A stretch of 16,261 nt of DNA. It comes from an uncultured Ruminococcus sp. GTDB taxonomy: Bacteria; Bacillota; Clostridia; Oscillospirales; Ruminococcaceae. The notes beneath the pieces were generated by a model. That model saw nothing but the letters and a program-made list of their open reading frames with translations, did no database searches and was not told the origin of the DNA. Both the position numbers and the translations under genes were made by a program. Where the stretch lies: NCBI GenBank assembly GCA_946612185.1, contig CAMOEP010000016.1:1-16261 (forward strand), given 5' to 3'. Of the stretch, positions 1 to 16,261 are shown in pieces. Position 1 is the first letter of the stretch. The number at the start of each line of letters is the position of its first letter.

Positions 1-575
1 CCTGCCGTCCGTTCACTATGGAGACAGTGACCGAGAATAACCAGCCCTACCAGTTCGCATCTGCGAAAATAGGCGGTATACCGGTTCATTTCACAGTCCA
101 GAATCAGGTGAACCCCGATGACCCGGACAACTTCATGCACTACCTTTTCAAGCTGGAACTCATAACCGCCCACGGCAGACTGCGGCTTGATGATGTTATG
201 GGCGGAGTTTACTGGTACAACAAGATGTTCGTACCGGTTCACGGAACAGATGCATCATTGCTTGAAAGCGGCGGTGTACTTTCTGCCAATAGCTGCACTG
301 AACTTTGCAAGCCGGAGGAAAAGGGGTTCAACAGGATATTCACCGAAGAATGGATACCGGCTATCGGAAAGGATATCCGCAGCTTCATAGAGACTATTAA
401 CAGCGCAGATACCGCCGGTACGAACCGTTATTACACAAAGACCCTTACATCTGCAAGAATGTGGCACAGTTTCACATCTGAGACAGGCTTCCCGGCACTG
501 ATATCCGGGGACAGCGCCGGACAGATAGACGCTGACATCATTATGGCGCAGGTAAAGGAAAAATACTCTGAATAA
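1..575 (+). CDS. Thiazolinyl imide reductase, C-terminal part (5' end outside window)
   Basis: The frame is open from base 3 to the TAA at 573-575, so this is the 3' part of a longer gene. The ATG at 18 has no ribosome site and is preceded in frame by codons for C-R-P-F-T, so it is probably internal. The visible part is about 190 residues; the family (YbtU/Irp3, PchG; Gfo/Idh/MocA fold) is about 350, so the N-terminal NADPH-binding half is missing. Recognition rests on the stretch VQNQVNPDDPDNFMHYLFKL followed by a G-x-L-x-L...GGVYWY segment, which I recall as typical of the C-terminal domain. Known members reduce the C=N of a carrier-bound thiazoline to a thiazolidine during pyochelin or yersiniabactin assembly. 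Its place 12 bases before an NRPS with a Cy domain supports this job. Another Gfo/Idh/MocA oxidoreductase is the main alternative. Confidence 0.78.
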   Translation, partial: CRPFTMETVTENNQPYQFASAKIGGIPVHFTVQNQVNPDDPDNFMHYLFKLELITAHGRLRLDDVMGGVYWYNKMFVPVHGTDASLLESGGVLSANSCTELCKPEEKGFNRIFTEEWIPAIGKDIRSFIETINSADTAGTNRYYTKTLTSARMWHSFTSETGFPALISGDSAGQIDADIIMAQVKEKYSE

Positions 576-576
576 T

Positions 577-581
577 AGGAG
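577..581 (+). promoter_or_regulatory. Ribosome binding site of the NRPS at 588
   Basis: AGGAG lies six bases before the ATG at 588 and only two bases after the reductase stop. It fixes the start of the NRPS and shows that the two genes are read from one transcript, with no room for a promoter between them. Confidence 0.8.
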
Positions 582-587
582 CAGAAT

Positions 588-3500
588 ATGGAAAACAGAT
601 CAAATAACGCCGCTGAACTGGTAAGCAGACTGGCGGCAAAAGGCGTAAAACTCTGGACAGAGAACGACAAGATAAAGTACAAAGCCGGAGCAGGCGCTCT
701 GGGCAAGGAGGATATCGCTCAGCTTAAAGAGTACAAGCAGGAGGTCATCGACCTTCTCAATGCCATGAAGGGCAGGATAAGACTGGTGGAGGACAGGGAC
801 GGACGGTATGAACCATTCGTGCTTACAGACGTTCAGCAGTCCTACCTTATGGGACGCAAGAAGCTGTTCGACTATGGCGGAGTTGCCTGCCATATCTACC
901 TTCAGCTTGACTACGACCATATCGACGTTGCCCGTGCGGAGGAGATATGGAACAAGCTTATCGCTCATCATGAGATGCTCAGGGCGGTAGTCCATGAGGA
1001 GGGATACCAGCAGATCATGGAGAAAGCCCCCCACTTCACCGTAACTGACCTGGGTGACATGGACGGTGCGGAGGTCATGGCGAAAATGGGTCATAGCTGC
1101 TACCAGGTAGGAAGCTGGCCTTACTTCTCAGTAGCCGTAACTAACTACGAAAACAGCGCTATCATGCACTTCTCCATTGAATTCCTCATTGCCGACTGGA
1201 CAAGTATATGGCTTCTTCTCCTGCAATTTGAGGGAATGTATTTCGGCAGGATAACTGAACTTCCTGAGATAGGCGCAAGTTTCAGGGACTACGTTATCGC
1301 TGAGAGAGAACTGAAAGCCGGTGCAGCTTACGAAAGTGACAAGAAATACTGGCTGGACAAACTGGAGGAATTTCCACCCTGTCCACATCTGGACGTTAAC
1401 AAGTACGACCCCGGAGAGACTGCGGCATTTGACAGAAAGTTCCTGCAATTCACACCTGAACAGTGGGCGGTAATAAAGAGGTGCGCAGTTGAAAATTCCG
1501 TAACACCTACCGCACTGGTACTTATGATATACAGCGCCGTTCTGGAAAGATACAGCGAGAACAAGCGCTTCGCTATAAACCTTACCGTACTCGGACGACA
1601 GGACTGCCACAAGGATATAAACAAGGTAGTGGGCGACTTCACAAGCCTTGTGCTTCTGGACGTTGACCTTGAAAACGCCGGAAGCTTCTCAGAGGCGGCA
1701 CGCAGGACAAATGCGCTGCTTTTCGAGGATATGGATCACGGACTGTTCAGCGGTGTATCGTTCATGCGTGAACTTTCCCGCAAAAAAGGCAATGATGCGG
1801 CATTTATGCCATATGTATTCACCAGCGCCATAGGACTTCTCAACTCAATGGACGCAGAGTCCCTGAAAGGAATGGTCAGCGGTATCGGCATCAGCCAGAC
1901 TCCACAGGTATTCATTGACTGTCAGGTAATGGACGGCCCGTTCGGTATGCAGGTGAACTGGGATATCCGCAGGAACGTGTTCAAGGAGGGTATGACCGAG
2001 GATATGTTCGGACTTTTCGGAGATATCCTCAATGCTATCGCAGACGGCGCAGACCTTGAAGCGGCAGCGTCAAGGAGTTTCCCGGCGTATCAGGGGGATA
2101 TATTCGCAAAGGCGAACGATACGGCTTTTGCACTCCCGGAGCATCTTCTCCATGAGAAGATCCTGAGCATTGCGGAGAAAATGCCTGAAAAGACCGCAGT
2201 CGTGGCAGACGGACAGAAGTACACCTATCGTGAACTTATTGGCATTTCCGGCGGCATCGCTGAGAAACTCAAAGCGGCAGGATTTTCAAAAGGCGAGCCG
2301 GTGGGACTTCTCTCCGGCAAGTCGGTATACCAGCCGGCAGGTGCTATAGCAGTACTGGCAGGCGGTGGAGTGTACGTTCCTATTTCAGCCGAGCAGGGAG
2401 CGAACCGTATCAGCAGTATCATAAACCGTGCGGGGATAAAGCTTTTCCTGACAGTATCCACGGATACCACCGTTTACCCGGAGAGCGTGGTGCGCATAAA
2501 TATGGACGAAGCCGGAAGCGGAGTTCTGGAGACAGTTCCGGGCATCTCGCTTACTGACCAGGCGTATATCATATTCACTTCCGGTTCGACCGGCGAGCCT
2601 AAGGGCGTAGTCATCAGCCACGGCGCAGCAGTAAACACTATCGAGGACATAAACCGCCGCTACAGCGTAGGCAGCGAGGATAGCGTACTTGGCGTATCAC
2701 AGCTTAATTTCGACCTTTCTGTATACGACATTTTCGGCTTGCTCTCCGTAGGCGGAACACTTGTCTACCCGGAGGACAGCCGCAAGAAAGAGCCTTCGTA
2801 TCTGGCACAGCTTATCGCTGAGAACGGCGTGACCGTATGGAACAGTGTACCTTCACTCCTGAAAATGGTGATGCTCTACATGGACGCAGACAGCTCTCAC
2901 CCGGATATCTCCACGCTGAGACTGGTAATGCTTTCCGGCGACTGGATACCCCTTGACCTGCCCGACCAGCTTCTTGGCTACTCAGAAAATGCGCTGGTAG
3001 TAAGTCTGGGCGGAGCGACTGAGGCATCTATCTGGTCTAACTACCACGAATACCACGGACTTCCCGACGGTTTTGCAAGCATACCCTACGGTCTGCCACT
3101 GGCAAATCAGCAGTTCAGGGTACTTGACAGCCACAGGAGAAATTGTCCTGTAGGCGTAAAGGGTGAACTTTATATCCTGGGCAAGGGTCTGGCTGACGGC
3201 TACTGCAATGACCCGGAGAGAACTGCGGAACAGTTCATAAAGTCGGCTGACGGCGTGATGATGTACCGCACAGGCGACCTGGGCAAGTATCACAGAAACG
3301 GCGAGATAGAGTTCCTGGGAAGAATGGATTCACAGATAAAGCTGAATGGTCACAGAATCGAACTTCAGGAGATAGCCCATGCAGTTGACGGCGTGGACAA
3401 GGTAAACAGGAGCGTGGTGGTATTCAATGATACCGGCAGCGAGAAGTCGCTGGTGTGCTTCTATGTGACCGAATCTGCTGACGAGAGCGACCTTGTGCGC

Positions 3501-5234
3501 TATGACAGGGAGTTTGCGGAACTGGCTGAGAATATCGGTGACGGCGTGGAGAATATCATCGGCGCATACGCTTCATCTCACCAGCTTTGCAGAACTATCG
3601 TTTGCGGTGCGGCACTTTCAGAGGACGCTCAGGACTGCACATTTACCGATAATATCCTTGCAGAGGGACTTGAGGGGAACTCCTTTGACATTGCCGTTAT
3701 CGGTCGTATCAAGACAGATGCGGATACGGCAGCCCAGCGTATTCTGGAGATTATCCGACCTGCTGGAGCAGTGGTACTCACAGCCGATGCGGACAAGACC
3801 CTTGCGGACAAGCTTTCACCCAGAAACCGTGCGGAGCAGGACGGAACAGTTATATGCCAGGTCAAGACCGACCGTGCATATGTTAGCCGTCAGGACATTG
3901 CGGAGGTCATCAGGAACGACCTGACCGACTATATGATACCTAAGACCTTCTTAATGCTGGATAGTTTCCCTGTAACTGCCAACGGCAAGGTGGATATGAA
4001 GAAACTCCGCAGCATGGCGGCAAACCATAATTCCGAGGTGTCAAGCGCTTCCGACAGCGTTTCAGCCGGCACTACCGAGACACAGAACAAGATAATCGCA
4101 ATGTGGGCAGAACTTGGCATAACCGGTCTTGGAATTACGGACAACTTCTTCGACCACGGTGCAGATTCGCTGATAATGGCGCAGATAACCGGAAAACTCC
4201 GCAAGGAACTCGCTCCGGACATTGCCTTTGATGAGATGCTCAGATTCCTGCTGAATCACCCGAATGTAGGCGAACTTGCAGAATTCATCGACGGATTCTC
4301 AGGTGCTTCCGGAAACGGCTCTGACGAAAACGGCGGACATATCGGTACTTCCCAGCTTATCGAAGCGGGAGAGGGAGCGCTGAGAGTGGTATTCCACCCG
4401 GCAATGGGAAATATGTCAGTACTCCGTGAACTTATCAGCAATATGACCCGCCAGAACAAGGGCAATATCCTGACCATTTCCGTAGGCGACTACAGCCGCT
4501 ACTGCGAACTTGATGACAAGACAGCGGTAAGTATTCTGGCAGACGATTATACACAGCTTATCCTGGAGACAGGCTGCACACAGGTACAGCTTATCGGCTA
4601 CAGCTTCGGCGGCTGGCTTGCTACACAGTGCGCAGTAAGACTGGTGGAAGCAGGCGTTGAGATAGCAGACCTGGTACTCCTTGACCCTCAGACTATCCCG
4701 TGGGATATCGAGAACGAGCTTATCACTGAGATGATGTTCCTGCCCAATGCAGGAGTTGCGCTTCCCGACGACGGCACCGGAACTGATGCAGAAGCGGCGT
4801 TTGCGTATATGCTCGACAAGTGCGGAAAGATACCGGAGAACGCAGCGGAGATACTGCTTCAGAGCGAGAGATTCGCACCCTTTGGCAGACTTATGGAAAA
4901 GCTTGGGGGCATGACAAAGGAGGAGCGTTTCTGCTACTACACATCTGAGGCAGAAAAAAGCGGCAGCGCTCCCGCAGCAGATATGCTCATGAGCCTTTAC
5001 GGACTTTTCAGCTCCACTACTCGCTATACAAAGGGCGAAATGGAGCCGTATTTCGGTGATGTAAGGTATATAAACGCCGCTGATTCCGAGGGACTTTTCT
5101 TCGGAAGCGATAAGAACATTGCCTACTGGAGCGATATCTGCATAGGAGATATGGAGGTATTACAGGCGAAAGGCGGTCACTTCACAGCCGTTGCTGACCC
5201 CGAAAACGCCGCAGCAATAGCCGAACTGTTATAA
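588..5234 (+). CDS. NRPS terminating module: TubC-like docking, Cy, A(Cys) with MT remnant, T, TE
   Basis: 1548 residues. Residues 8-58 resemble a TubC N-terminal docking domain (GVKLWTENDKIKYKA). A Cy domain follows (about 75-500) with E198xxxxD203xxS206 in place of the usual DxxxxDxxS, and SQTPQVFID near its end. The A domain (about 520-1145) has FTSGSTGEPKG near 663, FDLSVYD with its Asp at 709, GGATEAS near 808, GRMDSQIKLNGHRIE from 911 and the NGK lysine at 1134. Aligned by eye to GrsA, its pocket reads D-L-Y-N-M-S-L-I-W-K, one change from the Cys code of yersiniabactin and pyochelin synthetases. About 115 residues between motifs A8 and A10 look like a shrunken methyltransferase. The carrier Ser is 1194 (DHGADSL). 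The thioesterase has S1339 (GYSFGG), D1366 (LLDP) and H1531 (GGHF); the Ser-Asp spacing of 27 equals that I recall for the surfactin TE. Expected role: load and cyclise the last cysteine, then release the chain, as PchF does. Confidence 0.93.
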   Translation: MENRSNNAAELVSRLAAKGVKLWTENDKIKYKAGAGALGKEDIAQLKEYKQEVIDLLNAMKGRIRLVEDRDGRYEPFVLTDVQQSYLMGRKKLFDYGGVACHIYLQLDYDHIDVARAEEIWNKLIAHHEMLRAVVHEEGYQQIMEKAPHFTVTDLGDMDGAEVMAKMGHSCYQVGSWPYFSVAVTNYENSAIMHFSIEFLIADWTSIWLLLLQFEGMYFGRITELPEIGASFRDYVIAERELKAGAAYESDKKYWLDKLEEFPPCPHLDVNKYDPGETAAFDRKFLQFTPEQWAVIKRCAVENSVTPTALVLMIYSAVLERYSENKRFAINLTVLGRQDCHKDINKVVGDFTSLVLLDVDLENAGSFSEAARRTNALLFEDMDHGLFSGVSFMRELSRKKGNDAAFMPYVFTSAIGLLNSMDAESLKGMVSGIGISQTPQVFIDCQVMDGPFGMQVNWDIRRNVFKEGMTEDMFGLFGDILNAIADGADLEAAASRSFPAYQGDIFAKANDTAFALPEHLLHEKILSIAEKMPEKTAVVADGQKYTYRELIGISGGIAEKLKAAGFSKGEPVGLLSGKSVYQPAGAIAVLAGGGVYVPISAEQGANRISSIINRAGIKLFLTVSTDTTVYPESVVRINMDEAGSGVLETVPGISLTDQAYIIFTSGSTGEPKGVVISHGAAVNTIEDINRRYSVGSEDSVLGVSQLNFDLSVYDIFGLLSVGGTLVYPEDSRKKEPSYLAQLIAENGVTVWNSVPSLLKMVMLYMDADSSHPDISTLRLVMLSGDWIPLDLPDQLLGYSENALVVSLGGATEASIWSNYHEYHGLPDGFASIPYGLPLANQQFRVLDSHRRNCPVGVKGELYILGKGLADGYCNDPERTAEQFIKSADGVMMYRTGDLGKYHRNGEIEFLGRMDSQIKLNGHRIELQEIAHAVDGVDKVNRSVVVFNDTGSEKSLVCFYVTESADESDLVRYDREFAELAENIGDGVENIIGAYASSHQLCRTIVCGAALSEDAQDCTFTDNILAEGLEGNSFDIAVIGRIKTDADTAAQRILEIIRPAGAVVLTADADKTLADKLSPRNRAEQDGTVICQVKTDRAYVSRQDIAEVIRNDLTDYMIPKTFLMLDSFPVTANGKVDMKKLRSMAANHNSEVSSASDSVSAGTTETQNKIIAMWAELGITGLGITDNFFDHGADSLIMAQITGKLRKELAPDIAFDEMLRFLLNHPNVGELAEFIDGFSGASGNGSDENGGHIGTSQLIEAGEGALRVVFHPAMGNMSVLRELISNMTRQNKGNILTISVGDYSRYCELDDKTAVSILADDYTQLILETGCTQVQLIGYSFGGWLATQCAVRLVEAGVEIADLVLLDPQTIPWDIENELITEMMFLPNAGVALPDDGTGTDAEAAFAYMLDKCGKIPENAAEILLQSERFAPFGRLMEKLGGMTKEERFCYYTSEAEKSGSAPAADMLMSLYGLFSSTTRYTKGEMEPYFGDVRYINAADSEGLFFGSDKNIAYWSDICIGDMEVLQAKGGHFTAVADPENAAAIAELL
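3495..3842 (+). other. Shrunken methyltransferase-like insert inside the A domain
   Basis: Residues about 970-1085 of the NRPS sit between A-domain motifs A8 and A10, where PchE/PchF-type proteins carry an embedded methyltransferase or epimerase of several hundred residues. The second half, FDIAVIGRIKTD then RILEIIRPAGAVVL (about 1033-1064), looks like the post-motif part of a Rossmann methyltransferase (FDVV..., then LLRPGGLLVL). I see no glycine-rich SAM-binding loop of the E-x-G-x-G-x-G type, and the insert is far too short for a whole enzyme. I infer a non-catalytic remnant; a structural role remains possible. Confidence 0.6.
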
Positions 5235-5239
5235 GAGCT

Positions 5240-5417
5240 TAAGGCAACACCGCACAAAGACCGCCTGACGGCTTTGCGGCACATCTGCTTGCATATTTTC
5301 CGGCATCTTGCACACAAATTTCTTGACATACGTCAGTATGCCTGCGAAATTTCTGCACAATCTGCCGAAAAATCTGACTGCGCATCTGCACCACAATCTC
5401 TGTGCAGTGTTGCCTTA
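5240..5417. repeat. MITE-like imperfect palindrome with terminal inverted repeats (178 bp)
   Basis: The ends 5240-5260 and 5397-5417 are inverted repeats matching at 19 of 21 positions; both begin TAAGGCAACAC. The inside is also an imperfect inverted repeat around CATAC-GTCA-GTATG (5327-5340): for example, the left half has ATATTTTCCGGCAT and the reverse complement of the right half has AGATTTTTCGGCAG. A small stem also forms near the left end (5255-5263 with 5269-5276). There is no transposase and no open frame of note, so it would be a non-autonomous element. Read as AGGC...GCCT it is flanked by TA on both sides, which would suit an IS630/mariner-type target, but this is inference. It begins five bases after the NRPS stop. 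A deleted copy lies at 13135-13173. Confidence 0.72.
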
Positions 5418-5432
5418 TCTTCGCCATATTTT

Positions 5433-5453
5433 GAACCTTGTGAAGACAAGTTC
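5433..5453 (+). other. Small hairpin in the leader of the PKS/NRPS gene
   Basis: GAAC-c-TTGT pairs with ACAA-GTTC around a GAAG loop: eight base pairs with one bulged C. It lies just downstream of the repeat and 12 bases before the ribosome site. No T-run follows, so it is not a classical terminator. Whether it affects mRNA stability or translation cannot be told from sequence. Confidence 0.35.
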
Positions 5454-5479: not shown

Positions 5480-8400
5480 ATGCAGAACAATAAAGACATA
5501 TTAAAAAAGGCACTTCTTGAGATACGAAGCCTCAAGGAGCGTGTGAAAGTGGCAGCAAGCCACAGTGAACCTGCGGCTATAGTGGGTATGGCTTGCCGTC
5601 TGCCCGGAGGTATCAATAACCCGGAGAGCTACTGGAACGCTCTCTGGGAGGGTAAAGACCTTATCTCGGAAGTTCCGGACGACCGCTGGAACGAGTACGA
5701 CAAGGACGAGTATCTCCGTGACGAGCGCCTGAAAAAGGCAGGATTCCTCAGCGAGAATATCGAGAACTTCGACACCCGGCTTTTCCGCATGATGCCAATG
5801 GAAGCCGCTTCTATCGACCCTCAGCAGCGCCTTGCACTGGAAGTATGCTGGGAACTTCTGGAAAACGCCGGCTATGCACCTGATTCCCTGAAAGGCAAGA
5901 AGGTCGGCGTATTCGTGGGAGTAGTCCAGAACGACTTCGGTCATGAGAACTATATGCACGACAATACCGAGGATATCAACCTTACCGGTATTGACTTCTC
6001 CTTCCTCTCCGGAAGAATATCCTATTTCTTCGGATTCAGCGGCCCGTCAGTATCTATCGACACCGCCTGCTCATCGTCAGCAGTAGCAGTAGATACAGCG
6101 CTGAAATATCTGAGGGATCACGACTGCGATATGGCACTTGTTTGCGGAGTTAACATAATGTTCTCCCCTGAAAGTACACGAAAAATAGCCGCTCTGGGTA
6201 TACTTTCACCCAATGGCGAGGTAAGGGCATTCGACAAGAACGCCTCCGGAACAGTTCGTGGCGAGGGCGTGGCAGCGGTACTCCTGAAGCGTCTTGGCGA
6301 TGCCGAAAAGGACGGCGACAGGATAAGCAGCCTTATTATCGGCTCAGCAGTAAATCAGGACGGCGCAAGTTCCGGACTTACTGCCCCCAATGGCGCTGCC
6401 CAGACCGAGCTTCTGAAAACTGCCTGGGAAAAAAGCGGCATCGGTGCAGAGGAAATGACCTATATCGAAACCCACGGAACTGGTACAGCCCTGGGTGATC
6501 CTATCGAGATAAAGGCGATAACCGACGCTCTCGGCAGCGACAGAAAGACACCTATGTATATCGGTTCTGTAAAGACAAATATCGGTCATCTGGAAGGTGC
6601 AGCCGGTATAGTCAGCCTTATCAAGACCTCGCTTATGCTGGAAAAGGGCAAGATGCCAAAGAGTCTGCACTTCGACACTCCCTCAGAATACGTTGACTGG
6701 AGCAGTATCCCGGTAAAGGTCGCAGACTCCCGCCGTGACTGGAAGCGCAAGGGCGTTGCCAACGTAGCCGGAGTAAGTTCCTTCGGACTTTCCGGTACTA
6801 ACGTGCATATCGTCATGAAGGAGTACAAGCGCAGCACTTACCATAAAGCCGGGGAGATGCCGTCGTATCCCTTTATGTTCACCGCACCCTCTGCCCAGGC
6901 GCTCAAACAGAATATGAGCGGACTTCTCGACTACCTCAGAAGTCATAACTGCACCGACCTTACTTCACTTTCACGGTCGTACAATGTAACAAGAGCATCA
7001 CTTGCCCACCGTGCCTGCATAAACGCAGCAAATGCCGAGGAACTGGAAAAGTCCCTGACAGAGGCAGTTGAGAACGGCTTCACAAGCAATATGGTAACCT
7101 CGGAAGTGGATACTGCGCCAAAGACGGTGTTCCTGTTTACCGGACAAGGCTCACAGTACAACAATATGTGCAAGACCTTTTACGACAGCGTACCCTCGTT
7201 CAGAAGTGCCTTTGACGAGTGTGCAGGTCACTACTTCCGCATCACCTGCAAGAGCCTTAACGAGGTGGTATTCTCCGATAAGTACGACCTGAAAAAGACG
7301 GTGTATACTCAGCCTGCACTGTTTGCCTGCGAGTATGCGCTTGCTAAAATGTGGATGAGTTTCGGGGTAAAGCCGGACATGGTTTTCGGTCACAGCATCG
7401 GTGAATATGCCGCTGCCTGCATTGCAGGAGTTATGTCACCGGCTGACGCAATGAAGCTTGTTATCGCAAGAGGAAATATCCTCCACAAGTTCTCGCCCAA
7501 GGGCAAAATGGCAGCGGTATACGCTGACCGTGACAAGACCGCCAAGCTTATCCGTGGACATGAGGACGTGTACATCTCCCTTTCCAACAGCCCTGCTCAG
7601 ACAGTAGTTGCAGGTACGGAGGAAGCTGTAGACAAGTTCCTTGCTGAACTTGACAGCAAGGGCGAGAAGTACAAGCTGCTTATGACAACCCGTCCGTTCC
7701 ATACACCGCTTATGAAAGAAGCAGCGGAGGAATTCGGAAAAGTTGCCCGTGAGATAAAGTACAAGATGCCTGCCGTGAAGATAATCTCCAACATCTCCGG
7801 AAAAGCGGAGCGTGAGTGGCTCACATCGCCGGATTACTGGGTAGAGCATATCCTTTCCGAGGTTCGCTTCTGCGACAGCGTAAAGGGACTTGGCGACCTG
7901 TCCGACAAGGTATTCCTGGAAATTGGCGTAAGACCGGTACTCACCGGCATCATCGGCAGGATATCCGACGGCAAGGCAGTTTGCATACCATCAGCAGACA
8001 AGGAGCGTACAGCAGGGGAGATACTGCCCACAGTCCTGACGACTCTGTTCCTCAGCGGTGCATCAGCCGACCTTAAAGGCGCATACACCGGCACAGGTGC
8101 GCTTGTGTGCCAGATACCGAACTATGCCTTCGAGCAGAAGCGTATCCCCTATATCCATACCATAACCGGCAGGGAATCCGTAAAGGCTGAGATAGTCCAG
8201 GAGAGCGCCGACAGCGCAGTATCTACCGCAGACAAGGGCAAGGTGCTGAAAGCCGTCATCGCAGACTTTGCAGGCGTTTGCGCAGATGAGATAAACGAAA
8301 AGACCAATCTCATCAAGCTGGGAATAGACTCCGTAAACGCAGTCAGACTTATCGCCCGGATACGTTCGGTACTGGGAGTAAGCCTGTCGCTGGGAAGTCT

Positions 8401-11400
8401 GTTCGACCACCCTACATACGGCGAGGTGGAGAAGCTTCTCCGTGAGGAGGATACTGCTCAGGAAACTGCCTCCGCACAGATAGTCTCAATAGACGAGGAG
8501 CAGCGCTGCAAGCCCTTTGCGCTCAATGATGTTCAGTACGCATACTGGGCAGGACGTGACAACCCGAATATGCTGCTTTCACAGAATGCCTGCTGTTCGT
8601 ACTTCGAGGCAGACCTGAGCAATGTAGACCCTGACCGTTTCGTTGAGGCTCTGAAAAAGCTGGAGGAGCGCCATGATATGCTCCGATGCAGGATAACTGA
8701 GGACGCAGTTCAGTACATCGCAAAGGAAGCAGCACCGGAAGTGAGGATATACCGTGACATTCCGGCTGAAAAGCTCCCGGAGCATCTTGAAGCAGTTAAG
8801 CGTGAGATGTCAGCGATGATACTTCCCCTTGATGCACCCCTTTACCAGGTGAGACTGACCCAGCTTTCCGGCAGCAGCTACCGTGTACACTTCTACATCG
8901 ACTTCATGATAGCCGACGCAGCAAGCCTGTACATCATTATCCGTGACCTGGAAAGCATCTACAACGGCGCAGACCTTGCACCGCTGAGGATAACTTTCCG
9001 TGACTACCTGACATACACCTCGAATTCCGGGGAGATATGCAAGGCACGGAAGGCTGACGAGGAATTCTGGGCAGCTAAGATAGAGGACTTCCCGAAAGCA
9101 CCTGAACTTCCTTACGACTATTCCGCCTTTGTAAGCGGAGTTGAGAGAACATTCGTCCGCCGTGAGAAGCATATCTCGCAGAAAATGTGGAAGAAGTTCT
9201 CTGACAATGCAGCAGAGTACGGACTTACTCCCTCCGGCGCACTGTTCGGACTTTACTCCGAGGTACTCTCCGGCTTCGGCGGAGGAAGCAGCTTTGCAGT
9301 AATGCTGACAGTGTTCCGCCGCCACGACATTTCCCCGGACGTTGGAAGTATCGTTGGTGACTTCACCAGACTTGCGCCGGTGGAGGTCAACCGGAAGAAC
9401 GTTTCCATTGCGGAGAACGCAAGGGAGATACAGGGGCATATGCTGGAGAACATCTCACACGCTGAGTACTCCGCAGTCGAATTCACCGACAAGCTGAGAA
9501 AGTATCACCACGATGACAGAATGTACAACGTCATCTTCACCAGCGCAGTAGGCGTAGACCACGGCAGTGAGGCAGATGAAGCCGGCGGTCTGGGACTTGC
9601 CCGGAATATGCGCAGCATCGTGTCCAGTACACCACAGGTTTGCCTTGACCACCAGGTATTCTACGAGGCAGGAGATATAGTCGTGTCCTGGGATACTGCC
9701 GACAATGTTTTCGCACCGGGAACGGTGGACGCAATGTTCGCAGTATACTCTGAACTTATCGACAAAGCCGCTGAGGATAAGTCATTCTTCGGCAAGACAC
9801 TTACCGACCTGCGCCCTGAGAACAACAAGCTTTTGCAGGACAGCGCAAATGATACCGCCTACAGTTTAGGCGAAACCGTGATGACTGCCGGATTTGAGCG
9901 CAATGCCGCAGAATATCCCGACAGGACAGCACTTATATCCGCAGGCAGAGAGTACACCTACGGCGAACTTGACCGCTGGTCTGACAAGGCAGCGTCAGTA
10001 CTCATCGAAAGCGGCGCAGTCAAGGGCGACAGAGTACTTGTAGACCTGCCCAAGTCCTTCGAGCAGATAGGAAGTGTACTGGGAATCCTGAAAGCGGGCT
10101 GCATATACGTTCCCCTGACTCACGACCAGCCTGCTGCAAGAACTATCAGCATCATCGAAAAGGCAAAGCCGGCGGCAATAATTGCAAATGAGCCGAAAAC
10201 TGACCTTCCTCTGCGGACTATAACTACCGCTGAGATATCCGCCGGAAGCGGACAGTACAATAAGCCGGAGATAACTCCTGCTGACGGCGCATACATCATC
10301 TATACTTCCGGTTCAACAGGCGTACCGAAGGGTGTATTCATCGCCCACGGCTCGGCAATGAACACCATACTCGACGTAAACCGCAGGTACGGTATTAACG
10401 AAAGCGACAGAGCGATAGGCGTTTCTGCCCTCAGTTTCGATTTGTCGGTATACGATATATTTGGTATGCTCACAGCCGGCGGCGCACTGGTTCTCCCCAC
10501 AGAGGAACAGCGCATAGACCCTATGGAGCAGAATAGACTTGTGGCTGACTGCGGCGTTACAGTATGGAACAGCGTACCGGCGCTTATGGACTTGTACACC
10601 GACTTCCTTGACAGAAAGGGACTTTCCGCCCCGAAGATACGCAAAGCGATACTCTCCGGCGACTGGATACCCATGACACTTCCGGAGAAGCTTAAAAGAG
10701 TACTTCCCGGCTGCGCACTGACAAGCATGGGCGGCGCAACGGAAGCTTCCATATGGTCGAACTACTACGATGTAGAGAAAATGGACGCAAGCTGGAAGTC
10801 AGTACCCTACGGCTATCCTCTGGCAAATCAGCGGTTCTATATATTCGACGAATTCGGCAGACGTTGTCCGGAGAGAGTAAGCGGAAAGCTTCATATTGCC
10901 GGACGTGGCCTGGCAGAGGGTTACTACAATGAACCTGAACTGACCGAAAAGGCGTTCTACACCTCACAGGCAGCAGGGGAGAGAGTTTACGACACCGGCG
11001 ACTACGGAAGATATCTGGGCGGCGGAGTTATCGAATTCCTGGGCAGAAAGGACGGTCAGGTCAAGATAAACGGCTACCGTATCGAAACTGCGGAGATAGC
11101 AGCGGCGTTCAGGAAAGCCGGAGTTGCCGACAGGACTTACGTTCTGCCGGTTGGCGACAGAGTGAAGAAGATAGCGGTATTCATCGAGACTGAAAATGAC
11201 GTAGATGCACAGGCGCTCAAGATAAAGCTTGCGGATCATCTGCCGGACTACTTCATTCCGGAGCATATATTCTCCATTGCTGAACTGCCCGTGACCGGCA
11301 ACGGCAAGGTCGATGCAAAGAAGCTTACACAGCTTTGCGCAGAACTTTCCGCACGTCCGGCAGAGGTACAGGCTGCTGACGACGGTGACGTTGACCCTGT

Positions 11401-13138
11401 TCTGGCGGTGATACGGAATATCCTCGGCATCAGCAACCTTTCCGCATCTGACAGCTTCGGAAAGTATGGCGTATCATCGGTTGAGATGATACACCTTGCA
11501 GACGAACTGGAAAGCGTATACGGCATAAGACCGTCCATAAGCAAGATGCTGGGAAGCCGCTCCGTAAGCGAGATAATCGACTTCTTCGCAGGCGCTGAGG
11601 CATCAGGCGGTGAAAGCAGCGGATCTGCCGCAGAAGTACGCAGGGCAAAGAGAGTTGAAGCATCTGAGGAGGCTGAAAATGACCCCACAGAGTACTACCG
11701 CAGTCTTGGCGTTACGCTTTACACCGAGGAGGGCAAGCTGAAATTCCGTGCGGCAAAGGGCGTAGTTACAGGAGAAGTTCTGGAGCGTCTGAAAGCCGAA
11801 AAGTCGCAGCTTTTAGCATGGCTTGAAGCGGAAAAGGAGCGCTCTGAGAAGCAGGAGAAGTACTTCAATGAGAACAAGTACCCCCTGACACCTATTCAGA
11901 AAGCCTACCTTATGGGACGCTCTGCGGACTATGAACTTGGCGGCACAAGCGCTCATTACTACACCGAACTTAGCTGGCAGGGACTTGATCCTAAAAAGCT
12001 GGAAGATGCAGTAAACCGCATGATCGACATTCACGACATACTCCAGACAGTCATTCTTCCGGACGGAAACCAGGTCGCACTGGAGGAAGTGCCTTACTAC
12101 CGGGTAGTATTCAGAAAGGTAAGCGACGAGCAGTTCCTTGAACTCCGTGAGAGCATGAAAGCCCATATCTACGAAGCAGGAAAGTGGCCGATGTTCGACG
12201 TATTCGTAAGCGAGAAGGCTGACGGAACAACTATCGCACATTTCAGCTTTGACTGTATGCTGCTTGACGGCTGGAGCGCAAACATGATGATAAAGGAGAT
12301 ATTCAGCCTGTACAGCGGCAAGGATATCGACGAACCGGCGTACACGTTCAGGCAGTACGTTCTGGAAAAGGACAAGTGGCTTGAAAATAAGGACTACTAC
12401 CTTGCGGCGCAGGAGTACTGGGCAGAGAATTCGCCAAAGCTTCCGCCTGCTCCGGCAATGCCATACAGCAAGCCGCTTAGTGAAGTGAGCGCACCTCATT
12501 TCGCAAGGAAGAAGGCAGTACTCAGCAGAGAGCTTACCATGAAGCTGAACGAGAAGATAAAGAACTACTCCACAACAGCCTCAGCGGTAATATGCACCGC
12601 ATACATGAGGACACTTTCCGACTTCGGCGGCAGCAGCGACTTCTCCCTTGACCTTACCCTTTATAACCGTCTGCCGATAAATAAGGAAGTATCAAAGCTT
12701 CTTGGCGACTTCACAAACGTCACACTTATACCCTATCACCGACAGGGCGGATTCATAGCCGAAGCGGAGGAGGTTCGCAATGCGCTGGTAAAGGCGGTAG
12801 AACACAGGACTTTCAACGGTCTGGAACTTCTGAAGCCCTTTGCAGGCGATGACATATTCAAGGCAGTAATGCCGGTAGTATTCACCAGCGAACTTTTCGG
12901 AAACCTTGATGAGGAGGATGACAGCGAAGTATTCAAGGCTGCACAGGAGGTATACTCCATCAGCCAGACTCCGCAGGTTGCACTGGATCACCAGGCACTC
13001 GTCAGAAACGGCGAACTGGTACTCATCTGGGATCACGTCGAGGAACTGTTCGATAAGGACGTTATGGACAAGATGTTCGCAAGCTATGTATCATTCGTTG
13101 AAAAGCTTGCACAGGCAGATAGCTGGGAAAATCTTTAA
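5480..13138 (+). CDS. Hybrid PKS/NRPS: KS-AT-ACP, Cy-A(Cys)-T, internal TubC-like domain, Cy
   Basis: 2552 residues. A charged helix (about 4-26, ILKKALLEIRSLKERV) looks like a coiled-coil docking segment. KS (about 31-450): C197 (DTACSSS), H332 (THGTGT), H370 (NIGHLEG). AT (about 550-850): GQGSQ, S639 (GHSIGE) and RPFH ending at H741, which fits malonyl rather than methylmalonyl. ACP: S951 (LGIDSV). No ketoreductase, dehydratase or C-methyltransferase lies between AT and ACP. Cy: D1141xxxxD1146xxS1149. A (about 1470-1950): Y1605 opens YIIYTSGSTGVPKG, D1654 is in FDLSVYD, lysine 1943; pocket D-L-Y-N-I-S-M-I-W-K, cysteine-like, no insert. T: S2000 in YGVSSVEM. A second TubC-like stretch spans 2068-2119, then a last Cy with D2258xxxxD2263xxS2266 ends the protein with no A or T of its own. 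Likely role: extend an acyl starter by malonate, add and cyclise one Cys, and provide the Cy for the next. Confidence 0.94.
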   Translation: MQNNKDILKKALLEIRSLKERVKVAASHSEPAAIVGMACRLPGGINNPESYWNALWEGKDLISEVPDDRWNEYDKDEYLRDERLKKAGFLSENIENFDTRLFRMMPMEAASIDPQQRLALEVCWELLENAGYAPDSLKGKKVGVFVGVVQNDFGHENYMHDNTEDINLTGIDFSFLSGRISYFFGFSGPSVSIDTACSSSAVAVDTALKYLRDHDCDMALVCGVNIMFSPESTRKIAALGILSPNGEVRAFDKNASGTVRGEGVAAVLLKRLGDAEKDGDRISSLIIGSAVNQDGASSGLTAPNGAAQTELLKTAWEKSGIGAEEMTYIETHGTGTALGDPIEIKAITDALGSDRKTPMYIGSVKTNIGHLEGAAGIVSLIKTSLMLEKGKMPKSLHFDTPSEYVDWSSIPVKVADSRRDWKRKGVANVAGVSSFGLSGTNVHIVMKEYKRSTYHKAGEMPSYPFMFTAPSAQALKQNMSGLLDYLRSHNCTDLTSLSRSYNVTRASLAHRACINAANAEELEKSLTEAVENGFTSNMVTSEVDTAPKTVFLFTGQGSQYNNMCKTFYDSVPSFRSAFDECAGHYFRITCKSLNEVVFSDKYDLKKTVYTQPALFACEYALAKMWMSFGVKPDMVFGHSIGEYAAACIAGVMSPADAMKLVIARGNILHKFSPKGKMAAVYADRDKTAKLIRGHEDVYISLSNSPAQTVVAGTEEAVDKFLAELDSKGEKYKLLMTTRPFHTPLMKEAAEEFGKVAREIKYKMPAVKIISNISGKAEREWLTSPDYWVEHILSEVRFCDSVKGLGDLSDKVFLEIGVRPVLTGIIGRISDGKAVCIPSADKERTAGEILPTVLTTLFLSGASADLKGAYTGTGALVCQIPNYAFEQKRIPYIHTITGRESVKAEIVQESADSAVSTADKGKVLKAVIADFAGVCADEINEKTNLIKLGIDSVNAVRLIARIRSVLGVSLSLGSLFDHPTYGEVEKLLREEDTAQETASAQIVSIDEEQRCKPFALNDVQYAYWAGRDNPNMLLSQNACCSYFEADLSNVDPDRFVEALKKLEERHDMLRCRITEDAVQYIAKEAAPEVRIYRDIPAEKLPEHLEAVKREMSAMILPLDAPLYQVRLTQLSGSSYRVHFYIDFMIADAASLYIIIRDLESIYNGADLAPLRITFRDYLTYTSNSGEICKARKADEEFWAAKIEDFPKAPELPYDYSAFVSGVERTFVRREKHISQKMWKKFSDNAAEYGLTPSGALFGLYSEVLSGFGGGSSFAVMLTVFRRHDISPDVGSIVGDFTRLAPVEVNRKNVSIAENAREIQGHMLENISHAEYSAVEFTDKLRKYHHDDRMYNVIFTSAVGVDHGSEADEAGGLGLARNMRSIVSSTPQVCLDHQVFYEAGDIVVSWDTADNVFAPGTVDAMFAVYSELIDKAAEDKSFFGKTLTDLRPENNKLLQDSANDTAYSLGETVMTAGFERNAAEYPDRTALISAGREYTYGELDRWSDKAASVLIESGAVKGDRVLVDLPKSFEQIGSVLGILKAGCIYVPLTHDQPAARTISIIEKAKPAAIIANEPKTDLPLRTITTAEISAGSGQYNKPEITPADGAYIIYTSGSTGVPKGVFIAHGSAMNTILDVNRRYGINESDRAIGVSALSFDLSVYDIFGMLTAGGALVLPTEEQRIDPMEQNRLVADCGVTVWNSVPALMDLYTDFLDRKGLSAPKIRKAILSGDWIPMTLPEKLKRVLPGCALTSMGGATEASIWSNYYDVEKMDASWKSVPYGYPLANQRFYIFDEFGRRCPERVSGKLHIAGRGLAEGYYNEPELTEKAFYTSQAAGERVYDTGDYGRYLGGGVIEFLGRKDGQVKINGYRIETAEIAAAFRKAGVADRTYVLPVGDRVKKIAVFIETENDVDAQALKIKLADHLPDYFIPEHIFSIAELPVTGNGKVDAKKLTQLCAELSARPAEVQAADDGDVDPVLAVIRNILGISNLSASDSFGKYGVSSVEMIHLADELESVYGIRPSISKMLGSRSVSEIIDFFAGAEASGGESSGSAAEVRRAKRVEASEEAENDPTEYYRSLGVTLYTEEGKLKFRAAKGVVTGEVLERLKAEKSQLLAWLEAEKERSEKQEKYFNENKYPLTPIQKAYLMGRSADYELGGTSAHYYTELSWQGLDPKKLEDAVNRMIDIHDILQTVILPDGNQVALEEVPYYRVVFRKVSDEQFLELRESMKAHIYEAGKWPMFDVFVSEKADGTTIAHFSFDCMLLDGWSANMMIKEIFSLYSGKDIDEPAYTFRQYVLEKDKWLENKDYYLAAQEYWAENSPKLPPAPAMPYSKPLSEVSAPHFARKKAVLSRELTMKLNEKIKNYSTTASAVICTAYMRTLSDFGGSSDFSLDLTLYNRLPINKEVSKLLGDFTNVTLIPYHRQGGFIAEAEEVRNALVKAVEHRTFNGLELLKPFAGDDIFKAVMPVVFTSELFGNLDEEDDSEVFKAAQEVYSISQTPQVALDHQALVRNGELVLIWDHVEELFDKDVMDKMFASYVSFVEKLAQADSWENL
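11681..11836 (+). other. Internal TubC-like docking domain between T and the final Cy
   Basis: Residues 2068-2119 (core GVTLYTEEGKLKFRA, then ERLKAEKSQLLAWL) align well with the N-terminal docking stretch of the NRPS at 588 (GVKLWTENDKIKYKA, then AQLKEYKQEVIDLL). TubC-type domains normally sit at protein N-termini and bind the C-terminal tail of the previous protein. Inside a chain this one probably marks a former protein boundary that has been fused. Confidence 0.65.
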
Positions 13139-13192: not shown

Positions 13193-13969
13193 ATGAAAAC
13201 TTATGAAAACTGGTTTCCCTTCAATAAAGCCGGTGAAGCAGGCAGAGACACAGTTCTTGTGTTCTGCTTCCACCACGCCGGCGGTTCAGCAGCAGTATAC
13301 AGGAAATGGCAGGAACTCAGCGACGATTCCCTGCAATTTGTTCCGGTGGAACTTCCCGGCAAGGGCTGCCGTATGGGTGAGGAGTATATCGCTGATATGC
13401 AGACCCTTACAGAGATAGCAGCCGATGCAGTGGAATGGTTCGCAGAGGGCAGGAGATTTGTATTCTACGGTCACAGCATGGGTTCAGCAATAGCATTCAA
13501 GACAGCCTATGAACTGGAGAAATACCATAGCTGCAAGCCGGAACTGCTTGTAGTGTCCGGCAGACATTCACCCTGTATACACCTTTCAGACCGTTACACA
13601 ACAGATATGGAGGACTCAGCGCTCATTACGGAACTTACCGTAATGGGCGGAACTCCCAAGGAGATACTGGAGAATAAGGAGCTTATGGAGTACCTTATCC
13701 CCCATATCAAGAATGACTACCGGCTCAATGAGTCCTTTGCCTACAGCGGCGAAATGGTAAATATCCCCATATACGCCTACGCTGGCACAATGGACGCAGA
13801 TGCCACATATGATATGCTTGACGACTGGGAGAAAGTCACCACCTGCGGACTTAAAAAGCGAGAGTTCGAGGGAAAGCATTTCTTCCTGTTTGACCTGGGC
13901 AGACCCTATGCAGTAATGCTGAAAAAGCGCATATGTACAGCAGTCAGCACAGTTAACCAGCGGATATGA
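13193..13969 (+). CDS. Type II thioesterase
   Basis: 258 residues, the usual size for the stand-alone alpha/beta-hydrolase thioesterases of NRPS/PKS clusters (GrsT/SrfAD-type, cytoplasmic). Early FCFHHAGGSA (about 24-33) is the typical oxyanion-strand motif. The catalytic triad reads S95 (GHSMG), D201 (AGTMDADAT) and H229 (GKHFFL), and SGRHSP (about 122-127) is the usual SGR segment. Such enzymes hydrolyse wrongly primed or stalled acyl groups from carrier domains. The start ATG at 13193 has AAAGGA at 13175-13180, 12 bases upstream, which is rather far, so translation may be modest. The gene follows the short palindrome by 19 bases and overlaps the next gene by four bases (ATGA), which implies coupled translation. 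It is too short and lacks the carrier needed to be a releasing TE. Confidence 0.92.
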   Translation: MKTYENWFPFNKAGEAGRDTVLVFCFHHAGGSAAVYRKWQELSDDSLQFVPVELPGKGCRMGEEYIADMQTLTEIAADAVEWFAEGRRFVFYGHSMGSAIAFKTAYELEKYHSCKPELLVVSGRHSPCIHLSDRYTTDMEDSALITELTVMGGTPKEILENKELMEYLIPHIKNDYRLNESFAYSGEMVNIPIYAYAGTMDADATYDMLDDWEKVTTCGLKKREFEGKHFFLFDLGRPYAVMLKKRICTAVSTVNQRI

Positions 13970-14667
13970 ATTATGCGAATGTGATCTGCGCCACCGGTAT
14001 AGGGCAGCTTACGGCGGAAAACTTAGCCTACATGGAGAGCCTTATGCCCAGGCAGCGCATTAAAAGGTCACGAAGCTATATAAAGCTTTCGGACAGATAC
14101 AACTGTATTGCTGCATATTTCCTGCTGCTGTGCAGTATCAGAGAAATGTACGACAGGCAGGCTCTTCCCACAATTGCCATACACTCCGGCGGAAAGCCAT
14201 ACATACCGGAGAGGGGAGCGCCATGTTTTAATCTCTCCCATTGCAGCGGAGCAGTGTGCTGCGGGATATCGCCCCATGAGATAGGCGTGGATATTCAGGA
14301 CCCGGTAAGGGAAACTGAGAGTATCATAAGCTTTGCCATGAGCGAAAGGGAGAGACAGGTCATACTGTCCTCTGATGACCATGGAACGGAATGTGCAGGG
14401 ATATGGAGCATGAAAGAAGCGTATCTGAAATACCTTGGCACTGGTCTGTGCGAGTCCATGAAGGATATAGACCTTAGCGGACTTCTATGGAAAAGTGCCG
14501 GGTACGGAAAGCTTTACACCAATTCATTCACCGTGGAACAATACAGCGTAGGAGTTTTTTCACAGGATAAACTCACCGCTTGCGTAAGCGGTCACATAAA
14601 TGATATTATAGATACTTTCAGAAACGGCGGACGCTTCTGGAAGTTTACCGGAGGAAAGATATGTTAA
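13966..14667 (+). CDS. Sfp-type 4'-phosphopantetheinyl transferase
   Basis: 233 residues. Motifs in order: NLSHCSG (89-95), GVDIQ (107-111) and WSMKEAYLKYLGTGL (147-161), which together define the Sfp/EntD-like group. The enzyme moves the phosphopantetheine arm of CoA to the serine of ACP and T domains; here S951, S2000 and S1194 of the two synthases are obvious targets. D109 and E151 fit the magnesium ligands D107 and E151 of Sfp. The second acidic position of the GIDIE motif is Gln here (Q111). The ATG overlaps the thioesterase stop (ATGA) and has no clear ribosome site, so it is probably translated by coupling. Its stop at 14665-14667 lies seven bases inside the next gene. Confidence 0.92.
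   Translation: MNYANVICATGIGQLTAENLAYMESLMPRQRIKRSRSYIKLSDRYNCIAAYFLLLCSIREMYDRQALPTIAIHSGGKPYIPERGAPCFNLSHCSGAVCCGISPHEIGVDIQDPVRETESIISFAMSERERQVILSSDDHGTECAGIWSMKEAYLKYLGTGLCESMKDIDLSGLLWKSAGYGKLYTNSFTVEQYSVGVFSQDKLTACVSGHINDIIDTFRNGGRFWKFTGGKIC
14650..14654 (+). promoter_or_regulatory. Ribosome binding site of the A-domain gene at 14661
   Basis: GGAGG lies six bases before ATG 14661, within the end of the transferase gene. It supports a start that overlaps the previous stop (ATGTTAA) and places the new protein's first residues directly at the beginning of an A domain. Confidence 0.8.
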
Positions 14668-16261
14668 GTGAAATAAGGATAAAGGTGAACCAGACTGAAA
14701 AGGATATACCGGAAAAGCTTATTCATGAGGACTTTTTCCGTATAGCTAAAGAGTCACCTGACAGATGTGCAGTAGTACAGCGCAACGATAAGGGCGGATA
14801 CGATTCGTTCACATACGGACAGATCGCAGACAAGGCTCTCAGATACAGCGCATGGCTCACAGAAAACGGAGTGGGCGAGGGCAGCATTGTTGCAGCCGCC
14901 CTTGAAAAGAGTGCGGAGTACATCAGCGCTATCATGGGCATACTTGCCGCAGGATGCGCATACCTGCCCATGAGTTCCACCGTACCTGACGAGAGAAGAA
15001 AGTACATCTGCGAGAAAGCGCAGGTGAAATATACCATTACCACCGACGAAAGAGCCGACTTTTTCAAGGGACTTGGCATCAGCGTAATAACTCCCGAAGA
15101 TGCAGCGAAAGTCACAGCCGCTCAGGGGATAAAGGAAATATCCCCAAAAAGTACAGCCTATACTATATTCACCTCAGGCACAACAGGTCAGCCAAAAGGC
15201 GTTGAGATACAGCATTTTGCGGCACATAACACCATTGCAGACATAAACGACCGTTTTGGAGTGACTGAAAACGACAGCGTATTTGCAGTCTCCGAGATAG
15301 ATTTCGACCTGTCAGTGTACGACGTTTTCGGACTTCTCTCCGCAGGCGGAAAGGTAGTCATCTCCGACAGGGGAATGAAGAAAGAAGCCGGACTCTGGAC
15401 GGAAGTTATCGCACATGAGGGAGTGACAGTCTGGAACTCAGTACCCATGCTTCTGGAAATGCTTCTTTGCGCCGACACGGATAACCGTGCAGTAAAGGGA
15501 ATGAAGCTTATCATGGTGTCCGGTGACTGGGTATACCCCTCACTGGTCAGCAAAGTTCGCAGCATGAACGCCGATACTCAGATGATTGCCCTGGGCGGTG
15601 CGACTGAGGCATCTATCTGGTCGAACTACTTCAACGCTGGCAGAGATACCGATGAAAGCTGGAAGTCAGTACCCTACGGTGTTCCGCTGAGCAATCAGAA
15701 GTACAGGATAGTTGACGAGAATATGCACGACTGCGAGGACAATACCCCCGGCGAGATACTCATAGGCGGAAAGGGCGTAGCAAAGGGATATGTTAATATG
15801 CCTGAGCTGACTGCTGAGAGGTTCATCACTGACGGCGGCGAGCGATGGTACAGAACAGGCGACAAGGGTATGTACTGGTCTGACGGAAATATCGAGTTTC
15901 TGGGCAGACTTGACGACCAGGTGAAGTTCGGCGGATACCGTGTGGAACTTGGCGAGATAACAAGAAAACTTATCGCCCATGAGAGTATCAGAAATGCGTA
16001 TACTATCATGGTACAGAAGAATACAAAGCAGTTCCTTGCGTCAGTTATCGTGGAAGCCGATGACGGAAGCAGATGCACACCTGTAATGACCGGCGAGCCT
16101 GACGGACACAGGAACGAGATAGTTGCCCAGCAGAACAATGTGGTAAAGACGTTCCTTGCAGACCTTCTGAAACTGGAGGAGAACCTTCCCTGCACAGCCG
16201 GTGAACTTTTTGAAAAGCTTGGCTATGATGATGAGTACCGCCGTATCTTCGGCTACTGGCT
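14661..16261 (+). CDS. NRPS starting with a cysteine-type A domain, probably interrupted by a methyltransferase (3' end outside window)
   Basis: 533 full codons are visible and the frame runs off the right edge. There is no condensation or Cy domain in front: NQTEKDIPEKLIHEDFF (10-26) already corresponds to the Cy-A linker of the other two synthases. A-domain motifs: FTSGTTGQPKG (170-180), FDLSVYD with D216, VTVWNSVP, VSGDW, GGATEASIWSNY, YRTGD, and GRLDDQVKFGGYRVE from 415. The pocket reads D-L-Y-N-M-S-L-I-W, the same as in the NRPS at 588, so cysteine is expected; the tenth residue (the A10 lysine) is not reached. After A8 the chain does not move to A10 but to a helical stretch ending YDDEYRRIFGYWL. 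This resembles the entry to the embedded methyltransferases of PchE/PchF-type proteins. It probably supplies Cys to the orphan Cy at the end of the PKS/NRPS. Confidence 0.9.
   Translation, partial: MLSEIRIKVNQTEKDIPEKLIHEDFFRIAKESPDRCAVVQRNDKGGYDSFTYGQIADKALRYSAWLTENGVGEGSIVAAALEKSAEYISAIMGILAAGCAYLPMSSTVPDERRKYICEKAQVKYTITTDERADFFKGLGISVITPEDAAKVTAAQGIKEISPKSTAYTIFTSGTTGQPKGVEIQHFAAHNTIADINDRFGVTENDSVFAVSEIDFDLSVYDVFGLLSAGGKVVISDRGMKKEAGLWTEVIAHEGVTVWNSVPMLLEMLLCADTDNRAVKGMKLIMVSGDWVYPSLVSKVRSMNADTQMIALGGATEASIWSNYFNAGRDTDESWKSVPYGVPLSNQKYRIVDENMHDCEDNTPGEILIGGKGVAKGYVNMPELTAERFITDGGERWYRTGDKGMYWSDGNIEFLGRLDDQVKFGGYRVELGEITRKLIAHESIRNAYTIMVQKNTKQFLASVIVEADDGSRCTPVMTGEPDGHRNEIVAQQNNVVKTFLADLLKLEENLPCTAGELFEKLGYDDEYRRIFGYW

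Follow-up and report, generated by a model that had tools for sequence, protein, structure and literature searches.

A putative lipid-capped thiazol(id)ine metallophore locus in a Ruminococcus-related member of the Bacillota

The window analysed here is the whole of contig C16 (16,261 bases) of genome G000, a metagenome-assembled genome (MAG) of a Ruminococcus-related member of the Bacillota (2.61 Mb, 433 contigs, 73.7% complete). It carries a cysteine-activating nonribosomal peptide synthetase (NRPS) line with one polyketide synthase (PKS) module, and a second contig of that genome, C4 (20,650 bases, the first 20,000 examined as L022), carries a fatty-acyl-AMP ligase (FAAL) and transport genes. 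The two contigs together probably hold the genes that make and transport a metallophore of the equibactin/yersiniabactin class, a lipid-capped thiazol(id)ine in which a beta-keto/enol head would replace salicylate. The gene kinds of this class are known from Bacillota; what differs is the front end, a FAAL fused to an acyl carrier protein (ACP) and a PKS module without ketoreductase (KR) in place of salicylate ligase and aryl carrier. If this is true, gut and rumen clostridia compete for metals via a molecule that needs no salicylate, and Butyrivibrio hungatei XBD2006, an isolate that carries a related locus, makes the reading directly testable.

The assembly line and its starter unit

The long forward frames of the window are open and contain the domains named in a preliminary description of this DNA. 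Its central claim, that three heterocyclisation (Cy) domains, three adenylation (A) domains with cysteine pockets, a thiazolinyl imide reductase, one PKS module, a type II thioesterase (TEII) and a 4'-phosphopantetheinyl transferase (PPTase) occur together, is borne out by Pfam domains (called above gathering scores) and by the cysteine codes. Both contig ends truncate genes, the reductase (of which the last 190 residues remain) and a protein with an A domain and the start of a methyltransferase-like (MT) domain, and the window is therefore only part of the cluster. The features are:

3..575, +: thiazolinyl imine reductase (Irp3/YbtU type), C-terminal 190 aa, truncated by the contig start; PF21390 (Irp3-like_C) 29.5 bits, cut-off 27
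588..5234, +: terminal NRPS TubC-Cy-A-(MT remnant)-T-TE, 1548 aa; Pfam TubC_N, Condensation, AMP-binding, PP-binding, Thioesterase
1179..1205, +: Cy core motif EFLIADWTS of the terminal NRPS, first Asp replaced by Glu (Glu in 5/5 loci)
3510..3887 (borders approximate), +: MT remnant stuffed in the terminal A domain, from comparison with the G061 and G062 proteins
5480..13138, +: hybrid KS-AT-ACP-Cy-A-T-TubC-Cy protein, 2552 aa; Pfam ketoacyl-synt N and C, Acyl_transf_1, two Condensation, AMP-binding, two PP-binding, TubC_N
5564..8449, +: PKS module (KS 5564-6829, AT 7124-8074, ACP 8240-8449)
8570..11569, +: first cysteine module (Cy 8570-9844, A 9890-11119 with pocket DLYNISMI, T 11345-11569)
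11690..13114, +: internal TubC (11690-11833) and second Cy (11855-13114)
13193..13969, +: TEII; PF00975 134.5 bits
13966..14667, +: PPTase; PF01648 (ACPS) 46.6 bits
14661..16259, +: A domain (Cys, DLYNMSLI; Pfam AMP-binding) and beginning of a stuffed MT/epimerase-like domain, cut by the contig end
Contig C4, after the peptidyl carrier (PCP): FAAL with C-terminal ACP, 697 aa; PF23024 and PDB comparison

Four related loci were obtained by scanning genome contigs with query protein P0001: L007 in G060 (Bacillota bacterium, MAG; its hybrid protein is titled Ruminococcus sp.), L008 in G061 (Ruminococcus sp. RUI259, MAG), L009 in G062 (Butyrivibrio hungatei XBD2006, isolate) and L006 in G063 (Pseudobutyrivibrio sp. 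RUI093, MAG). Together with the window and C4 they form the five loci referred to here; gene presence at the relatives' loci was checked by tblastn, and domain matches covering less than half of the query domain were left out of their domain tables. On single contigs, 4/4 relatives keep the order saccharopine-dehydrogenase-like (SacDH-like) gene, reductase, TubC-Cy-A-T-TE, KS-AT-ACP-Cy-A-T-TubC-Cy, TEII, A-MT-T, FAAL-ACP; in the window, G060 and G061 the PPTase gene stands after TEII and before A-MT-T. C4 opens in frame within an MT-PCP stretch matching the end of the truncated A-(MT) protein (L022 from base 2), and the gap, estimated against the G060 ortholog, comprises about 18 residues or about 54 unseen bases. 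Going by the shared order and this in-frame fit, the two separate contigs C16 and C4 are probably neighbours in the genome.

The starter unit and transporters that the preliminary description had proposed to seek beyond the window appear to lie on C4, where the FAAL-ACP is followed by a Trep_Strep energy-coupling factor (ECF) S component, a CbiQ-type T component and a double ECF ATPase. After these come an AraC regulator and two ABC proteins, each a permease-ATPase fusion, which match general MsbA-type families, under those families' cut-offs. By sequence the C4 ligase is a FAAL: its 11 best PDB matches include four named fatty-acyl-AMP/adenylate ligases (FadD32 twice, FadD23, 3pbk) and three acyl-CoA synthases, and the remaining 7r7e/f/g and 3kxw carry other names but are, as we take them, FAAL structures as well. 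At all five loci a FAAL takes the place of an aryl ligase, a result that covers the loci themselves and not the rest of the genomes. Two other contigs of G000 were considered as missing parts and rejected: C47 carries a C-domain protein and a ligase, and C174 (L023, G000:C174:1-5545) encodes A-T-Cy-A outside the conserved order. C174 represents a second NRPS in G000, with a different, non-cysteine-like pocket after a DxxxxD Cy (both judged by eye).

No KR is found by Pfam in the hybrid protein, in which about 60 residues lie between AT and ACP. KS (DTACSSS), AT (GHSIG, RPFH), TE (GYSFG) and carrier motifs are present, and the AT motifs are presumably of malonyl type. The pockets of the three window A domains read DLYNMSLI, DLYNISMI and DLYNMSLI, and the cysteine code DL(Y/F)N.S.I recurs in 15/15 A domains of the window and the four relatives (eight positions as in Table 1 of PMC3672683, located via motif anchors). 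The protein starting at 14661 is the likely A-MT-T partner of the second Cy. The terminal Cy has ExxxxD in 5/5 loci and the remaining two have DxxxxD in 5/5, which corrects the preliminary description.

Stuffed domains concern module 2 and the terminal module. That of module 2 has GxRTG in 5/5 loci; among PDB entries a putative methyltransferase matches it best (E 6e-5), followed by PchE (E 0.01), with which it has VAV...R.G in common. The stuffed domain of PchE is an epimerase (PMC6604713). A plain methyltransferase was set aside on account of the GxRTG and the stretch common with PchE, and we lean tentatively towards an epimerase-like function. In the terminal module, G061 and G062 retain a complete MT (their proteins are about 270 aa longer here and contain EIGAGTC), whereas it is gutted in the window and G060, and via different deletions in G063.

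Among the relatives G060 is closest to the window, with 79-84% identity over three proteins and 73% for the FAAL, as against 47-65% for the other relatives. The terminal NRPS is 81.8% identical to G060 and 55.2-55.6% to G061, G062 and G063, the hybrid protein 79.3% and 55.5-56.4%, and the PPTase has relatives in G060 (64%) and G061 (36%). The best PDB matches of the terminal NRPS, whose AMP-binding_C scores under its cut-off, are the bacillamide NRPS BmdB (607 bits) and PchE (433.8 bits). The reductase fragment reaches 47.6 bits on TIGR01761 (cut-off 188.8), to which the full G060 ortholog, 73% identical to the fragment, scores 241.2; this ortholog also matches YbtU/Irp3 structures. The two big genes of the window are separated by 245 bases (5235-5479), and those of G060 by 26.

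Proposed product, known systems and rival readings

In the proposed scheme the FAAL would convert a fatty acid to acyl-AMP and load it on the fused ACP, and KS-AT-ACP would add a single malonyl unit and, because the module lacks a KR, leave a beta-keto thioester. Three cysteines would then be added and cyclised by the Cy-A-T of the hybrid protein, by its second Cy together with the separate A-MT-T, and by TubC-Cy-A-T-TE; the Irp3-type reductase would turn one thiazoline into a thiazolidine, the TE would free the acid, and TEII would edit. The ECF and ABC proteins may move the product or its metal complex (Fe, Zn or Cu being the candidates) under putative AraC regulation. Enolisation of the beta-keto group beside the first thiazoline would create an O,N six-membered chelate as in 2-hydroxyphenyl-thiazoline, and in this way the lipid/PKS start would assume the role of salicylate. 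The ECF and ABC genes on C4 are in keeping with a metallophore, as already suggested in the preliminary description; an anaerobic producer, likewise suggested there, is presumed from kinship.

Contrary to the preliminary statement that relatives are mostly found in Pseudomonadota and Actinomycetota, several precedents belong to Bacillota: equibactin of Streptococcus equi, NRPS cluster 1 of Clostridium kluyveri and the 023_CTn1 cluster of C. difficile (PMC3672683, PMC6814731). The equibactin locus eqbA-N sits on an integrative and conjugative element, and eqbHIJ are needed for most equibactin-linked iron accumulation (PMC3672683). Compared by gene kind and not by sequence, both systems have three Cy steps on cysteine, a thiazoline reductase, a SacDH-like gene (4/4 relatives), an alpha/beta hydrolase (matched in G060 only; the upstream DNA of G061 was not covered), TEII, PPTase (window, G060 and G061), a multi-gene importer and two fused permease-ATPase ABC proteins; G060 possesses all equibactin accessory gene kinds in this sense. 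The equibactin-type front, however, was not found: equibactin has a salicylate-AMP ligase and aryl carrier protein, no PKS part, a single A domain and a DtxR-like regulator (PMC3672683), whereas FAAL-ACP, KS-AT-ACP, three A domains and an AraC regulator are present here.

Yersiniabactin and pyochelin are similar in Cy chemistry on cysteine, in the Irp3-type reductase and, by gene kind, in the YbtP/Q-like ABC pair. TEII and an AraC regulator likewise occur in these systems, and the yersiniabactin PKS acts after the first rings, in contrast to the position before the first ring seen here. Of the features of this class the cysteine A domains, the Cy domains and the reductase are present in our loci, but a salicylate ligase or supply is not. 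Both known products have a salicylate head, and yersiniabactin a single shared A domain (PMC3672683).

Micacocidin and massiliachelin, from Ralstonia and Massilia, share with the present line a FAAL-ACP-KS-AT start into cysteine modules with stuffed MT-like domains (PMC6604713, PMC10291242), and massiliachelin also a thiazolinyl imide reductase (PMC10291242). In contrast, their PKS contains a KR with a proposed 6-pentylsalicyl product, they have a single A domain, and FAAL and PKS are on the same protein as the first cysteine module (PMC6604713, PMC10291242), whereas the FAAL-ACP here is a separate protein on C4; their KS clade also differs, as shown below for Ralstonia. The preliminary view that the architecture is unlike any known one holds insofar as no close full-length match to a characterised cluster appeared in what was searched. 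It is partly an artefact, because the starter unit lies on a separate contig, and the combination of FAAL and PKS follows micacocidin-type logic (PMC6604713, PMC10291242). Lusichelins, fatuamide A and bilothiazoles were rejected as precedents, being aryl-started, and no published description of such a cluster was found in open-access PMC. The antiSMASH metallophore rules rest on known chelator genes and omit NRPS-derived thiazolines and PKS-derived alkylsalicylate (PMC12971057), so that a lipid-started thiazoline metallophore would probably be missed.

Several observations weigh against the metallophore reading. Among the genes scanned no metal-dependent regulator, for which the preliminary description had proposed to look, was found, though metal boxes were not sought. 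The AraC gene has full-length matches only at C4, G060 and G010 (an aryl-type locus described below) and none at G061, G062 and G063. By tblastn of the loci no PPTase was found at G062, G063 and G010, and a SacDH-like gene had no match in G000, at 73.7% completeness. G010 contains a second acyl-CoA-ligase-like gene, which leaves its starter uncertain. Deletion of the ABC pair eqbKL left the equibactin iron phenotype in place (PMC3672683). Since the terminal Cy carries Glu for Asp in 5/5 loci, the final ring may not close normally. A salicylate synthase above cut-off was found in 0/7 genomes examined (1/14 control genomes was positive), but its absence does not discriminate, because G010 and the host of equibactin (PMC3672683) also lack one.

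Rival readings of the locus were considered. On the one hand, the PKS might be iterative, extending the FAAL-loaded acid several times to an alkyl aromatic head, which for want of a KR would be an alkylresorcylate rather than an alkylsalicylate, and the product would be a micacocidin-like aryl thiazoline siderophore. The common FAAL-ACP-KS-AT logic speaks for this, as does massiliachelin, for which a hexanoate start and three malonyl extensions have been proposed (PMC10291242), and Haematospirillum P0117 likewise has no listed KR within the micacocidin-type KS clade. Yet no KR is matched in the window module, no cyclase or aromatase occurs among the genes scanned, and the KS trees apart from that of Ralstonia. 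In a tree of 75/114 rows (one KS per protein, 39 rows left out by choice; quick search with SH-aLRT only), the window KS falls in a clade of 42 (SH-aLRT 99) for which PF08659 (KR) is listed in 0/42; the Ralstonia solanacearum synthetase P0103, which fits the micacocidin type, belongs to a separate clade of six (SH-aLRT 99), 5/6 listing KR. We regard the iterative alternative as unlikely. On the other hand, the product might be a lipopeptide with another role (antibiotic, signal, enzyme inhibitor), with transporters serving its export or another substrate. The MsbA-type matches of the ABC proteins would suit this, and when first tested the bilothiazoles, products of a Bilophila cluster, were weakly antibacterial and did not clearly bind metal (PMC11934131). 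However, ECF genes, ABC pair and imine reductase together are the gene-kind set of equibactin, which eqbHIJ mutants tie to iron import (PMC3672683), and the G061 and G062 loci have FeoB and a ZIP transporter, respectively, in their neighbourhood; we consider such another role rather improbable.

A decaying copy without product in the G000 organism is, in our judgement, very improbable. The MT remnant, the missing PP-loop gene (see below) and the Glu in the terminal Cy would agree with decay, as would the state of G060 (L038, G060:C164), where a TAG interrupts the FAAL in frame and the PP-loop and ECF-ATPase genes are both broken into two frames, through decay or assembly error. The long frames of the window are open, however, with KS, AT, carrier, A, two Cy and TE motifs present, and an identity of 79-84% to G060 in three proteins, against 78% in RpoB, is compatible with upkeep or recent exchange.

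Hosts and distribution of the locus

The assignment to Bacillota in the preliminary description agrees with our data: the four relatives' loci and, among the matches listed, the closest named homolog of the hybrid protein ('Ruminococcus sp.') all belong there. An origin from a pseudomonad or actinomycete, which would have spoken against that description, was rejected, the nearest relatives being clostridial. Going by kinship, the host is presumably an anaerobic, gut-type bacterium. For the 565-aa RpoB fragment of G000, identity is 84-85% with the same-genus genomes G001, G002 and G008, 77-78% with G035, G010 and G060, 73% with G061 (186 residues) and 53% with G062; no RpoB match was obtained in 2/10 genomes (G024, G063).

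P0001 (self 3527 bits) has an ortholog-level match in 0/35 same-genus genomes, the next scores being 843 (G024) and 827 (G010); FAAL-ACP at E 1e-90 occurs in 1/394 genomes of the order, G000 itself, and at E 1e-40 in 1/9 chosen genomes, G060; the hybrid protein at E 1e-150 is found in 3/398 genomes of a phylum survey, one being G000 and the other two matching in part. In G061 the two big proteins show 68.5-74.0% identity to G062 and 55-56% to the window, whereas its RpoB piece (at most 185 columns) is nearer to G000 (73.0%) than to G062 (66.7%). This incongruence hints at transfer between families, though G061 is a MAG and its RpoB piece short.

C4, G060, G061, G062 and G063 all have ECF genes, G062 in two sets and G061 at its edge. 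The ABC pair is complete at C4, G060 and G061; at G062 and G063 the edge contains a single ABC gene or a piece of one. G061, G062 and G063 have additional glyoxalase-like and Cys/Met pyridoxal-phosphate-enzyme genes. A Klebsiella plasmid locus (L045, CP032834.1) encodes a protein 38.9% identical to P0001 together with an ABC pair and a TonB receptor; it was rejected as the same system, the identity extending over a single protein and a TonB receptor adjoining. A single frame at G060:C77:19673-24127 contains two A-domain matches, 43% and 38% identical to P0005, and may belong to a further NRPS.

Front ends and the PP-loop gene in related loci

Genome G010 is close to G060 (RpoB 93.8% identical over 560 aa). 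Its contig C9 carries TubC-Cy-A-T-TE (42% over residues 10-967), a SacDH-like gene (25%), reductase (35%), TEII (40%), AraC (42%), ABC pair (52 and 58%) and ECF genes. It differs in an aryl-AMP-ligase-type gene (TIGR02275 515.7 bits, below the cut-off of 723.55), an N-terminal carrier ahead of the first Cy (by eye), a fusion of the reductase to an MT, and the lack of a KS within 40 kb. Given the same accessory kinds with an aryl-type ligase and no KS so close to G060, the front end looks exchangeable, one chassis in near relatives taking either an aryl-type or a lipid/PKS start.

A PP-loop ATPase gene lies between PPTase and A-MT-T in G061 and between TEII and A-MT-T in G063, and its frame in G060 is split; the window, the G000 assembly and the G062 region yielded no copy. 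The copies of this small gene, whose product has thiolase-like cysteines, are:

L040:143-1195, -: PP-loop gene
L038:4790-5840: further copy
G063: ortholog

The family has 66 members at E 1e-10, with named sources in Ruminococcus, Anaerobacterium, Desulfotomaculum, Pseudodesulfovibrio, Halodesulfovibrio, Desulfobulbaceae and Bilophila, groups known as anaerobes. SGGKDSA, C30, C33, C153, C156 and C281 are invariant in the 32/66 homologs aligned (34 were left out). The best PDB match of the profile is N-acetyl sugar amidotransferase (N-terminal part), and over its CxYCG stretch the profile can be aligned to a [4Fe-4S]-dependent tRNA thiolase, so that the enzyme may put sulfur, or nitrogen, into a carbonyl. 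Besides the loci examined, equal longest-contig sizes (45657, 34357, 13012, 17710) link the gene to PKS/FAAL proteins. It is conceivable, though doubtful, that these loci represent a new metallophore class with a fatty-acid beta-keto/enolate-thiazoline head, in which the PP-loop family would swap the oxygen of the head (or another carbonyl) for sulfur in sister loci and shift the preference from hard to soft metals; the head (aryl, O-enolate or S-enolate) would then be swappable on one thiazoline/transport chassis.

A search with FAAL-ACP (7998 candidates scored, best 120 listed) gave 17 matches of at least 417 bits, the next full-length one scoring 322. FAAL-ACP and KR-less PKS homologs have equal longest-contig sizes in four cases: 101412 and 101141 are loci examined here, and 45657 and 127934 (Paenibacillus) are linked by equal size alone. 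Named members of the KS clade of 42, besides Ruminococcus, are Sporomusa sphaeroides, Pelosinus fermentans, Clostridium estertheticum, Paenibacillus arenosi, Cohnella cellulosilytica and Aquimarina. Other lipid-started thiazoline lines, with FAAL-KS-Cy-A-MT and no listed KR, are P0117 (Haematospirillum), P0081 (Photorhabdus temperata) and P0069 (Arhodomonas), the latter two also without listed AT. The search with the hybrid protein scored the 7999 best candidates, 4594 of them at E 1e-100, with the best 120 listed; P0016, a 52% homolog, represents 151 member sequences.

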